Below, in pieces: positions 6,929 to 34,696 of a DNA stretch of 39,811 bases. This DNA comes from a virus. A program made the translations under genes and the position numbers. Under the pieces are notes generated by a model. That model ran no database searches and was not told the DNA's origin. It saw only the letters and a list, made by a program, of their open reading frames with translations. How positions within the stretch are numbered: the stretch's first letter is position 1; every line of letters begins with the position of its first letter. The stretch covers positions 1 through 39,811 of the IMG/VR virus record IMGVR_UViG_3300006805_000013. The stretch is one strand, 5' to 3'.

Positions 6929-6954
6929 TGTATCCTCCGTTTGGTTACAATGAC

Positions 6955-9883: not shown

Positions 9884-11521
9884 TTACTGAATACCGTTTT
9901 GGGCTTTGTTGAGTGCAATCTGCTCTAACTGCCAGTCTCTATCAATCGTGATGGTGTATGGAATAGTGATAGCGATACCGGCAAAACTACAAGCGTTCTC
10001 AACAACTGACTTAATGACTTTCACAGGGTCAAGGATACCAGCCTCTAGCAAGTTGATTGGTGCGTTCGTGATGTTCTTAACATCAAAGCCATAACCGCTA
10101 TCACTTGATAGCACTTGCATTAGACGGTAGCCACCATCTTCACCGGCATTAGTCATGAGTTGCTTGAATGGTTCAACTAGAGCTTCCAGTACTACCTTGA
10201 AGCCTTCAAGCTCATCGCCTTGCAACGTGAAGTCTGGTGCAGTCTCCAGCTTAGACATTCGGGCTAGGGTTGTAGCACCACCGGGAACAATACCATCTTC
10301 TGAAGCGGCTCGAGTTGCATGTACAGCATCTTCCACCCTAAACTTCATTTCCTTCACTTCAGTCTCAGTGGCACCACCAACTTTGATGATACCGATTTTA
10401 CCATTAAGTTTAGCGAGTCGCATTTCCATGCGTTCCTTCTGGAACACTGAGTACTTATCCGACTTGAGCTGTTCTTTAATCTGGTCAATACGCATAGCCA
10501 CATCTTCCTTGGCACCAACGGCACCAAAAATAGTGGTGCTGTACTGTGTGACAATGGCCTTCTTAGCCTGACCCAAGTAGTCCGAAGTAACCTTATCTGA
10601 TGGGAGGTTGTTGGCCAAAACCTTACCGCCGGTCATTACAGCAACGTCCTCTAGGAATGGCAACTCTTGATCGCCGTAGACTGGTGAGCTAACAACGCAT
10701 ATCTTCACTTTGCCAATCTGGTTAGTCAAGGCACAAGTCTCTAGGGCTTGGCCGTCTACCTTACCGATGATAAGCAAGGTCTTGTGCTCTGTATTCGCGT
10801 AAACCATTTCAATGATAGGCACAATGTCTTGGTTCTGCTTCAAGGCTTTCTCAGTCGCGAGGATACTAACATTCTCATGGACTGCTTCCTCGGTCGTTCG
10901 GTCGGTCACAAAGTGCGGTAGCTTCCAGCCCTTTTCAAAGTATAGGCCGTCAACTACTTCCTGATAGACTCCAAGGCCTTCCCACTCCTCAACAGTGATA
11001 CCGACACCACCAGCTTTAATAATAGTATCAGCGACTAATTTACCGACTTCCGGGTCACTCGCACTTATAGTAGCTACTTCAGCTAACTTTTCTTCTGGCA
11101 CTGGTACCGCTAACTTATCTAGCTGTTCCTTGACATAGAACGATGCCTTGTCTATACCACGTCTTAATGCCATAGCGTTCGCACCGGCGGCTACTCGCTT
11201 ATGAGCCTTCTGGAATATGTGATAGCCTAGCATAACTGTTGCAGACGTACCATCACCACTGATAGAGTTGGACTTCTCGCTTGCCTGAACCAAAAGTCCA
11301 GCACCGATATCCTCTACAGAATCTTCCATGTATACGTCACGGGCAATAGTTACACCGTCATGAGTGACGACTGGCTGGCCGTAGTTCTTCTGGATAGCTA
11401 CGTTCCCTGATACTGGACCATAGGATGCTGAGACTGCTTCGTAAACCTTCTCGGCACCTACTAGAATCTTGCCTCTTGCTTTGTCACCTTTTGTAAATAT
11501 CTTTGCTTCACCACGTGCCAT
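9884..11521 (-). CDS. groEL: Phage-encoded chaperonin GroEL (Hsp60)
   Basis: A 545-aa protein of full GroEL length that would form an ATP-driven folding chamber. ATP-site motifs are present: SYGPVSGNV (33-41), THDGVTIAR (53-61) and SGDGTSATV (88-96, Asp90). The hydrolysis region is kept as RVEDAVHATRAA, with the Asp equivalent to E. coli Asp398. The C-terminus lacks the Gly-Gly-Met repeats. The GroES gene lies directly upstream and overlaps it by one base, so they form a two-gene operon. A likely role is folding of virion proteins, or supplementing the host chaperonin. The Thr-to-Ser-Ala change in the DGTTT-type loop is notable. Confidence 0.96.
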   Translation of the reverse strand: MARGEAKIFTKGDKARGKILVGAEKVYEAVSASYGPVSGNVAIQKNYGQPVVTHDGVTIARDVYMEDSVEDIGAGLLVQASEKSNSISGDGTSATVMLGYHIFQKAHKRVAAGANAMALRRGIDKASFYVKEQLDKLAVPVPEEKLAEVATISASDPEVGKLVADTIIKAGGVGITVEEWEGLGVYQEVVDGLYFEKGWKLPHFVTDRTTEEAVHENVSILATEKALKQNQDIVPIIEMVYANTEHKTLLIIGKVDGQALETCALTNQIGKVKICVVSSPVYGDQELPFLEDVAVMTGGKVLANNLPSDKVTSDYLGQAKKAIVTQYSTTIFGAVGAKEDVAMRIDQIKEQLKSDKYSVFQKERMEMRLAKLNGKIGIIKVGGATETEVKEMKFRVEDAVHATRAASEDGIVPGGATTLARMSKLETAPDFTLQGDELEGFKVVLEALVEPFKQLMTNAGEDGGYRLMQVLSSDSGYGFDVKNITNAPINLLEAGILDPVKVIKSVVENACSFAGIAITIPYTITIDRDWQLEQIALNKAQNGIQ

Positions 11522-11811
11522 TATTTTGCTCCCTCGATTACTGCCATTACGCGACTAGCCTTGAACAAGGCCATATCTTTCTGCTCTAGCTCTTTTGGCG
11601 TGTCAGCCTCAGCGTGTTCCTGAGTGTAGACGATATCACCGGCTTTTACTGACGGCTTAATAAATACACCGAACTCAAATACCCCTTCGCCAACCGCGAC
11701 TATCTCGTATAGCTGGTGAGTGTCCCGGATATCTGAACCTGTGACGGCACCTGTATCTCGCTCGACCTTCTTTGCTAGGCAGTAGTCAAGTACTGGTTTT
11801 ATATTTTCCAT
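11521..11811 (-). CDS. groES: Phage-encoded co-chaperonin GroES-like
   Basis: A 96-aa protein with the GroES beta-barrel pattern: YEIVAVGEGV (about 35-44), PSVKAGDIVY (53-62) and a final ASRVMAVIEG. It would cap the GroEL ring. The region of the GroEL-binding mobile loop (about 17-31, TGAVTGSDIRDTH) lacks the usual Gly-Gly-Ile-hydrophobic motif, so it may be adapted to its own GroEL partner. It starts behind AAACGGAGG and has an unusual structured leader at 11832-11897. Confidence 0.88.
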   Translation of the reverse strand: MENIKPVLDYCLAKKVERDTGAVTGSDIRDTHQLYEIVAVGEGVFEFGVFIKPSVKAGDIVYTQEHAEADTPKELEQKDMALFKASRVMAVIEGAK

Positions 11812-11831
11812 TTTGTCCTCCGTTTAATTAA

Positions 11832-11897
11832 GTATTACAATGGCCAGTCCAAACGGAAGTAAAGACTGGCCACTACAATACTCAATTACTTCCGTTT
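11832..11897 (-). promoter_or_regulatory. Structured groES-groEL leader with alternative pairings
   Basis: On the minus strand the order is: AAACGGAAGTAA (plus 11886-11897); a strong hairpin with 9 bp TGGCCAGTC/GACTGGCCA plus GTATT/AATAC below; its loop TTACTTCCGTTT (plus 11851-11862), a perfect 12-bp complement of the first segment; and then the real ribosome site AAACGGAGG (plus about 11816-11824), which can also pair with the loop's CTTCCGTTT over 9 positions with one G-U. Loop pairing with the 5' segment or with the ribosome site would be mutually exclusive. This suggests translation control of the chaperonins, possibly by temperature. It is an inference from sequence only. Confidence 0.72.
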
Positions 11898-11907
11898 TCA
11901 TATATCT

Positions 11908-11916
11908 ATTTTATCA
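11908..11916 (-). promoter_or_regulatory. Extended -10 promoter for groES-groEL
   Basis: TGATAAAAT on the minus strand, a TGn extended -10 with one mismatch to TATAAT. It overlaps the stop codon of the small membrane protein gene. Transcription would begin near 11901, just before the leader structure. Confidence 0.6.
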
Positions 11917-12060
11917 CATAAGCACGTTTAGCCAAATACGGCAGTCTCCTGTAATTAAAGTGTAAAGTATCAAAGCATCGAAAATAAATATCGCCGTCCA
12001 GAATATCACACCGATATAGTTGATTCTGTGCTGAATGGGTTGACCGTAAACGTACTTCAC
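11914..12060 (-). CDS. 48-aa single-pass membrane protein (GTG start)
   Basis: The start is GTG 12060 with GGAGG 5 nt upstream; the ribosome site overlaps the stop of the CAP gene. The product begins MKYVYGQPIQHRI and carries one hydrophobic segment of about 22 residues (YIGVIFWTAIFIFDALILYT). The size and form resemble small phage membrane proteins. A role in lysis or superinfection control is possible but unsupported. Confidence 0.7.
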   Translation of the reverse strand: MKYVYGQPIQHRINYIGVIFWTAIFIFDALILYTLITGDCRIWLNVLM

Positions 12061-12061
12061 C

Positions 12062-12610
12062 TTAACCTCCAAAATGTACTACTGTTAAATTTATCCCACT
12101 CTTGAAAGTGCAGTATCCTACTCCAAAACTGCTATAGTCTGACGACATCAACACTTCTTTGTGGGTCGGGCTGTTTAGCCATGCCTGATGCTGTGCGTCT
12201 GAATCTCCACCATAACCCTCAGCGAGAATCTCTCCCTTTAGGCCATACCCGGTAATGAATGAGTGCCACTTAGTGCCATCAGGTGCATCGTGTGCCCAAT
12301 AGTCGTTGTCGCTCATGTGCTGACACTTCCTTGAAGCTGAGGTGTCCAACTTACTCACACGCTTTAATTTTCGTAACCCTGCTCGCTCACGGCTTTGGTT
12401 GATACGCATTAACGCCGGTTCAGTGGTGTAGGCTACTGCTGGTCTAGCTACCGCTGGCTTTACTGGCTTAGGTGTATCAATAACTGGCTTTTCTGGTACA
12501 GGAACCGGTTGCTGTATCACTACCGGTACAGATACCTCTGGCACTGGCTTGCTTATTAGTGGGCTTGGGATGCTAAAAGATAGCAGTCCAATGACCAACT
12601 CAGCAAGCAT
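12062..12610 (-). CDS. Secreted CAP (SCP/PR1-like) domain protein
   Basis: A 182-aa protein. An N-terminal hydrophobic stretch (1-18) looks like an export signal. It is followed by a Pro/Val-rich linker (about 20-60) and a CAP domain (about 65-182). CAP landmarks are present: MRINQSRERAGL, the His107 region (YWAHDAPDG), GEILAEG with Glu127, then WLNSPTHKEVL with His150 and the final GVGYC and VVHFGG strands. Bacterial CAP proteins act outside the cell, but their biochemistry varies. Here it could modify the host surface. It is unusual cargo next to YopX and HNH genes. Confidence 0.88.
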   Translation of the reverse strand: MLAELVIGLLSFSIPSPLISKPVPEVSVPVVIQQPVPVPEKPVIDTPKPVKPAVARPAVAYTTEPALMRINQSRERAGLRKLKRVSKLDTSASRKCQHMSDNDYWAHDAPDGTKWHSFITGYGLKGEILAEGYGGDSDAQHQAWLNSPTHKEVLMSSDYSSFGVGYCTFKSGINLTVVHFGG

Positions 12611-13141: not shown

Positions 13142-13521
13142 TATTTCCCTCCGTTTGTTTGTGCCATATACTCAGGTATTTCTTCCAAGTCACGGCTACC
13201 TTTCATTTTGTTACATGGGTCGCACGCTCCTCTGAGGTTCGTAACTTCAAACTTCAGTTCAGGATACCGTACCTTTGACTTAACGTGTTCCAGTCGGATA
13301 GTCGAACGGGTTAGTTTTATGGGGCACTGAGGACTGATACGTAAATAGCAGTACCATACACCTCTGCCGTCTGGTGGGTTTAGTTCAAACCACAACCGGC
13401 TGACTTCAGTTCGCTTGTCTTTTGTCTTGTCTGACTCTTTTTTTATAGCTCGGCGTGGCTTGTTGAAGCACATGAGCGTTGAGTGAGTGACACCACAACC
13501 ATCACAGTATTTGTTTTTCAT
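13141..13521 (-). CDS. HNH-type zinc-finger nuclease-like protein
   Basis: A 126-aa protein. The C-terminal half has an HNH pattern: LEHVKSK (His79), a Tyr-Pro-Glu-Leu-Lys-Phe stretch, then Asn95 and RGACDPCNKMKGSR (Cys100, Cys103, Asn104). An N-terminal CDGC (Cys6/Cys9) may bind a second zinc. It may be a nicking or recombination nuclease (NinG-like position among recombination genes) or a homing-type nuclease. The small terminase lies far away, which argues against the HNH-with-terminase packaging type. Confidence 0.8.
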   Translation of the reverse strand: MKNKYCDGCGVTHSTLMCFNKPRRAIKKESDKTKDKRTEVSRLWFELNPPDGRGVWYCYLRISPQCPIKLTRSTIRLEHVKSKVRYPELKFEVTNLRGACDPCNKMKGSRDLEEIPEYMAQTNGGK

Positions 13522-34243: not shown

Positions 34244-34252
34244 ATTATATCA
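34244..34252 (-). promoter_or_regulatory. Extended -10 promoter, TGATATAAT
   Basis: A perfect extended -10 on the minus strand. Its TGA is also the stop codon of the upstream coiled-coil gene, so promoter and coding end are merged. Confidence 0.8.
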
Positions 34253-34696
34253 CGAACTCATACGATTTACATTACGCTCGAGTAACTGAGTCCTGTCGTT
34301 GAGTCGCTTCATCTTCATGTCTACTTCTTGTTCTTTACGAAGCAAAAAGGCTTCACGCTTGTCTAAATCTATTTTACGCATCTCATTGATACTCAACTGT
34401 TCTTGAGCCCCATTGCGTTTGATAATGGCATCGTTTCTGATACGTCTGGCTTCCTCAAGCATGTCAGTCGCTTGTTGTCTCGCTGTAGCAATTTCGGTTT
34501 CACATTGGTCTAACTGGTCGCTTCTCACCTGATTAGCATGGGCATCGTGGGAATTATTCGTAGCTTGAAGTTGCAATACTTTGGTAGCATCTTCAATCTC
34601 TTTAGCTTGTGCCTCTAGTTTTGTAGCAAGCTCGTCAAAAAAACTTCGTGCAGTTGAAACGTCTACTGTAGTTGGTGGTTTACTTCCGTTTTCCAT
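34250..34696 (-). CDS. Coiled-coil virion protein
   Basis: A 148-aa, almost fully helical protein from MENGSKPPTT, with heptad-like Glu/Lys/Gln/Leu runs (about 15-145). The start at 34696 is preferred over ATG 34714; it has TATACT exactly 6 nt upstream and no good ribosome site, so it may be read from a leaderless mRNA. It sits between fibre genes and could be a fibre chaperone or a trimeric stalk. The gene at 37064-37849 has the same character. Confidence 0.75.
   Translation of the reverse strand: MENGSKPPTTVDVSTARSFFDELATKLEAQAKEIEDATKVLQLQATNNSHDAHANQVRSDQLDQCETEIATARQQATDMLEEARRIRNDAIIKRNGAQEQLSINEMRKIDLDKREAFLLRKEQEVDMKMKRLNDRTQLLERNVNRMSS

Follow-up and report, generated by a model that had tools for sequence, protein, structure and literature searches.

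Some phages carry their own GroEL and GroES. The groES-groEL (groESL) operon of one such phage raises the question of whether its leader RNA controls synthesis of the chaperonin; no leader-RNA control of phage GroEL/GroES was described in the literature searched. A sequence-only reading of the locus had proposed a three-segment translation switch, in which a hairpin loop pairs either with a mimic of the Shine-Dalgarno (SD) sequence or with the true SD site of groES, possibly acting as an RNA thermometer or responding to a protein. We compared the leader with those of related phages and analyzed its predicted folding.

Results

Layout of the groESL leader

The DNA analyzed, hereafter the window, is the 39,811-base virus record IMGVR_UViG_3300006805_000013 of IMG/VR (positions 1 to 39,811). 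Genes for a portal, a GpA-type terminase, a major head protein, a tail fibre and lysis identify it as a tailed phage, and its main genes lie on the minus strand. The order on this strand, 5' to 3', is promoter, ATG 11901, segments a, b, a' and b', the SD site and groES ATG 11811 (Table 1).

Table 1. Positions of leader and operon features in the window.
Feature	Position	Strand	Basis or remark
groES (Cpn10, 96 aa)	11521..11811	-	Pfam PF00166, E 7e-7; PHROG 3188 GroES
groEL (Cpn60, 545 aa)	9884..11521	-	Pfam PF00118, E 3e-49
Predicted promoter TTGGCT-16-TAAAAT, extended -10 (TGn)	11908..11935	-	9/12, TG present
Upstream ORF, 25 codons, MKTEVIEYCSGQSLLPFGLAIVILN	11824..11901	-	ATG 6 nt past the -10, possibly leaderless; TAA abuts SD
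Segment a, AAACGGAAGTAA	11886..11897	-	Read from sequence; complement of a'
Segment b, 5' arm of 24-pair hairpin	11864..11887	-	Fold and inverted-repeat search
Segment a', TTACTTCCGTTT, apical loop of b:b'	11851..11862	-	Exact reverse complement of a
Segment b', 3' arm of hairpin	11826..11849	-	Pairs with b: 20 Watson-Crick and 4 G-U
groES SD site, AAACGGAGG	11817..11825	-	9-position complementarity to a' in the window phage

All three segments of the earlier reading, namely a, the loop a' and the SD site, were found on the minus strand. The loop forms a perfect 12-bp match with a, as had been claimed, and its pairing with the SD site, read from the sequence, includes one G-U among the nine positions. 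The loop that holds a' is 14 nt long and closes a b:b' stem of 24 uninterrupted pairs. With its 25-bp arms (11888-11864 and 11849-11825), this is the longest inverted repeat reported in the 39.8-kb window for arms at most 200 nt apart. The minimum free energy (MFE) of the leader was -40.6 kcal/mol (z = -5.9 against dinucleotide shuffles), and none of 200 shuffles was as good. A scanner for the a-b-a'-b' arrangement reported exactly one instance in the whole window.

Directly upstream of the leader lies a gene for a CAP-domain (cysteine-rich secretory) protein (12062-12610, minus strand). The sequence AAACGGAGG recurs at 2453-2464, 6931-6942 and 13145-13156 (minus strand), preceding the genes that start at 2448 and 13141 among others, and the groES leader loop is in part complementary to these copies.

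The CIRCE/HrcA operator, TTAGCACTC-N9-GAGTGCTAA, had no match in the window with up to 3 mismatches allowed. No Rfam family reached its gathering threshold; only eukaryotic miRNA hairpin models appeared, far below threshold. A self-cleaving ribozyme was rejected because, judged from the leader comparison, a conserved core sequence is absent.

Distribution of the element among related phages

Relatives were gathered by GroEL and GroES searches of IMG/VR. Ten contigs fell in the same GroEL clade at about 58% identity or more (L001/L041, L002, L005, L006, L042, L043, L044, L045, L046 and L055), L042 and L046 being near copies. Eight have a readable leader, since the L001/L041 record is without GroES and L055 starts within an HNH-like gene before groES. 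Half of these eight (L005, L043, L044 and L045; GroEL 60-72% identical) have the a-b-a'-b' order. L005 carries a as AACGGAAGAA, a' as TTCTTCCGTT, a stem different from that of the window and the SD AATGGAGG. Segment a is CACTGTGG in L043, AATCGCTAG in L044 and TCAATCGCTAGA in L045, and in these three the exact complement of each a sits in the loop of the long hairpin.

The proposal that a mimics an SD did not extend to L043-L045, as a is SD-like only in the window and L005. The third arm, loop:SD pairing, was likewise not conserved: the energy of the duplex between loop and start region was marginal in the window (shuffle fraction 0.078) and L005 (0.058), and the fractions were 0.72 in L043, 0.53 in L044 and 0.75 in L045. 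An SD mimic combined with loop:SD pairing was therefore rejected as a general principle.

According to the sequence-only reading, relatives that conserve groES without the complementary segments would count against it. Such leaders were found in L002, L006 and L042/L046, which have groES and no element; other relatives keep the segments. On the GroEL tree, in which few branches are strongly supported, three state changes are needed. Element-bearing phages flank the element-less ones on both sides, which suggests that the element may be ancestral and was lost several times. An exact search of IMG/VR with the hairpin and with AACGGAAG...CTTCCGTT...GGAG yielded the architecture only in L005 among 34 stretches, because a and b differ among phages. 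The GroES relatives L084 and L085 were set aside as too distant, the element being absent from them, and tblastn of GroES against named phages gave no match.

HNH-endonuclease-like ORFs occur in several relatives, either separating the leader from groES or lying between the two chaperonin genes (L044 3295-3700, L042/L046 3311-3700, L045 3492-4001, L055 1-317). The one in L044 lies between the element and groES and is joined in frame to the element's upstream ORF.

Predicted order of folding

Prefix folding gave the same order in all five phages (the window, L005, L043, L044 and L045): a:a' was the MFE structure until about 4-16 nt past a', after which b:b' took over. The two states were nearly equal in L045 (-26.0 vs -27.1 kcal/mol). 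Since b' starts 0-2 nt after a', a:a' and b:b' should not be able to coexist at full length on geometric grounds.

A folding order of this kind could also serve a transcription attenuator, in which b:b' with its U-rich 3' arm would terminate transcription intrinsically or make the polymerase pause, and the earlier a:a', predicted by the prefix folds to form before b' exists, would delay it and allow readthrough into groES. A GC-rich stem is indeed followed by a T-rich stretch in all five phages (T in 6-8 of the next 12 nt), and the post-stem sequences of L044 (TTTTTGTTT) and L045 (TTTATTATTAT) are good U-tracts. However, terminators generally have shorter loops than the 12-17 nt seen here, the window has a poor U-tract (ATTGTAATACTT), and a terminator scan, restricted to loops of at most 8 nt, made no call at b:b'. 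We regard attenuation as improbable, though it deserves more weight than the other alternatives considered below.

Covariation of both helices

The letters of a and b differ among the phages, and each segment matches its own partner. When partners were swapped among the phages, every 5' region paired most strongly with the loop of the same phage or of its closest relative (window/L005 and L044/L045), and every b with the b' of the same phage. Energies for a with its own loop were -12.6 to -19.1 kcal/mol, compared with -2 to -6.6 kcal/mol for foreign loops, nearest relatives excepted; those for b:b' were -16.5 to -27.9 kcal/mol with the own partner and -4 to -14 kcal/mol with foreign ones. The 118 b:b' positions compared comprised 92 Watson-Crick pairs, 13 G-U, 1 A-C and 12 others. 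A decaying DNA palindrome would give G-T and A-C at similar rates, so the excess of G-U, together with the matching of own partners, shows that both crossing helices are real and under selection at the RNA level. By this comparison, all five phages keep both pairings by compensatory change.

At a stricter setting, the scanner found 2 a-b-a'-b' instances per 868,000 strand-bases of other phage loci; its matches in the larger contigs of the clade were the groES leaders and one tRNA-like sequence. A similar arrangement, with an SD-like sequence within b', precedes an unrelated ORF in L058 (1041-1110), a phage with a distant GroEL, and could be due to chance at this background rate. Taken as sequence evidence, these comparisons make it almost certain that the conserved interleaved RNA element in the groESL leader is real. 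That part of the earlier reading which saw a structured leader with competing pairings thus stood, the pairings being kept in related phages by compensatory change; the loop:SD third arm fell away.

Crossing helices backed by covariation, as looked for in an H-type pseudoknot, are present. A pseudoknot at the 5' end, made of part of a:a' and the upper b:b' stem, might serve as a binding site for a protein of the phage or the host, for example in autoregulation or mRNA protection, and the roughly 12-18 nt that link a to upper b might suffice to bridge a short upper stem. Against this, the 0-2 nt between a' and b' appear geometrically too short to cross the 8-12 bp of a:a', and apart from a UUU on the 5' flank of the loop no unpaired sequence is conserved; we consider such a pseudoknot rather unlikely. 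Conserved alternative helices, as expected of a leader-peptide translational attenuator, are indicated by the covariation of both helices, with their exclusivity judged from prefix folds and linker length.

The long hairpin alone, which reaches 22-26 pairs in L005 and the window, might be an RNase III site or a stabiliser of the message 5' end. This leaves the co-varying a:a' complement unexplained and the stems are interrupted in L043-L045, which makes it a poor candidate. Inverted repressor sites in the DNA, formed by a/a' or b/b' with no role for RNA, would fit the position of a just downstream of the promoter and the inversion of the repeats in DNA; the 13 G-U against 1 A-C in b:b', and a topology kept while sequences largely differ among phages, render such an operator very improbable.

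Predicted exposure of the SD site

A thermometer of the groESL type, whose SD melts out on heating, would suit a structured leader on a chaperone operon and has a known precedent in Salmonella groES (PMC4166951), but is hardly credible here, since from 10 to 45 °C predicted SD openness changed by at most 0.06 in the four leaders covered (window 0.75-0.79, L005 0.31-0.34, L043 0.38-0.43, L045 0.33-0.39). On these predictions the thermometer was rejected. With loop:SD pairing marginal or absent and predicted SD openness nearly flat, neither the three-segment reading nor the thermometer is supported in the form in which it was proposed.

Predicted SD openness with a:a' enforced was 0.22 in L005, 0.33 in L043, 0.02 in L044 and 0.19 in L045, and with a masked it was 0.48, 0.46, 0.33 and 0.48, respectively; the window gave 0.48 vs 0.63. 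Against b'-shuffled controls, closure under enforced a:a' was significant only in L044, and the SD of the window was no more closed than in controls. Masking nt 1-24 or 1-30, to imitate the footprint that a ribosome at the 5' AUG might have, left the SD open in all five (0.54-0.84). On masking nt 1-36 or 1-42 the SD closed (lowest value 0.02-0.30); its pairing partner was the loop a' in the window and mostly b' in the other four. When the 5' part up to the loop was removed, closure compared with shuffles gave Fisher p values of 0.025 (dinucleotide), 0.076 (mononucleotide) and 0.002 (genome composition); the effect was small in L043, and taken singly only L044 and L045 reached significance. L044 supports closure less than its number suggests, because the 'SD' tested there is a GGGAGG inside the HNH reading frame and probably a relic. 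These model results are suggestive of SD occlusion as the output of the element.

The 5' AUG and the upstream ORF

The earlier reading had missed a 25-codon ORF that traverses the whole element. In all five phages an ATG lies 6-7 nt past a -10-like box and just before a (TAAAATAGATATATG, TAAAATAGAAGCATG, TATAATGTAGTTATG, TATAATAGTAATATG and TACACTAGTGGTTATG), the box being at the equivalent place in L005, L043, L044 and L045. L002 and L006 have promoter-like sequence, no such ATG and no element. The ORF spans the element in four of the five (window, L005, L044 and L045), that of L043 stopping after 8 codons. In L045 the ORF overlaps the groES ATG, in L044 it continues into the HNH ORF, and in the window and L005 it terminates at the SD. 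A conserved leader peptide was rejected, the five peptides having no amino-acid similarity. Retention of the ATG while the peptides share nothing suggests that initiation, rather than the peptide, matters; use of the 5' AUG would presuppose a start of transcription that is itself inferred.

A second exact copy of AAACGGAAGTAA is located at 34680-34691 of the window (minus strand), just after an ATG 6 nt past TATACT and at the 5' end of ORF 34250-34693; pairing in trans between this copy and the groES leader loop is conceivable. A general role of such a copy as trans target was rejected, since it occurs only in the window and no comparable copy with a start codon is present in G002-G004. In L069, from the L044 phage, a repeated motif close to GCTCATACGGCTT directly follows promoter-like sequences near 1241, 13008 and 14051 (minus strand) and is possibly another leader element.

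Discussion

Comparison of the five leaders indicates that the groESL leader is a cis-acting 5' RNA with interleaved helices a:a' and b:b', and that it is probably a folding switch. As its working principle we favor mutually exclusive folding, with some reservation. During transcription, the a:a' hairpin would form first and hold b in its loop; once b' is synthesized, the stronger b:b' hairpin would displace it. If a ribosome or 30S subunit sat on the 5' AUG, a would be covered and b:b' thereby favored. Whenever b is unavailable, either in the a:a' loop or under a ribosome traversing the upstream ORF, b' or a' would be free to mask the groES SD by pairing; with b:b' formed, the SD would be more exposed. 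In this way groES-groEL synthesis would be tied to ribosome loading at the message 5' end. The full scheme of a ribosome-gated SD is put forward tentatively. Against it stand the weak SD closure in L043 and the mononucleotide-shuffle result, the window SD that under enforced a:a' closes no more than its controls, the unconserved peptide with its stop after 8 codons in L043, the dependence of the 5' AUG on an inferred transcription start, and the three relatives (L002, L006 and L042/L046) that manage without the element.

Several known systems resemble parts of this arrangement. In erm-type translational attenuators a short leader-peptide ORF passes through complementary segments that alternate beside the SD. 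The phage leader resembles this layout in its predicted upstream ORF; its helices, however, are interleaved (1:3, 2:4) instead of neighbouring (1:2, 3:4), and its peptide is not conserved. In metastable co-transcriptional hairpins, as in hok, aapA3 and the MS2 leader (PMC6733600), an early transient structure gives way to a later fold of greater stability, as is proposed for the phage leader. These examples come from toxin mRNAs or an RNA phage, whereas here both helices lie within about 75 nt before the groES of a DNA phage. The lambda cIII leader, described as adopting two mutually exclusive conformations (Altuvia 1989, as cited in PMC4166951), is another phage leader whose RNA can fold in alternative ways near the ribosome site; it is temperature dependent, in contrast to the groESL leader in silico, which in addition has interleaved helices and a 5' AUG. 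The Salmonella groES thermometer (Cimdins 2013, as cited in PMC4166951) shares a structured leader upstream of groES, but the SD of the phage leader is not predicted to melt with heat.

A new class of phage leader RNA, in which the position of a ribosome at a leaderless 5' AUG would decide whether the SD of a chaperone operon is open, is conceivable, though we hold it with little confidence. The element is small, about 90 nt, and testable in a plasmid reporter. We consider the groESL leader an alternative-fold leader whose existence is firm and whose mechanism we infer. Its a-b-a'-b' interleaving departs from the usual attenuator layout, and the retention of this topology while the letters turn over is clean evidence of selection on RNA folding.
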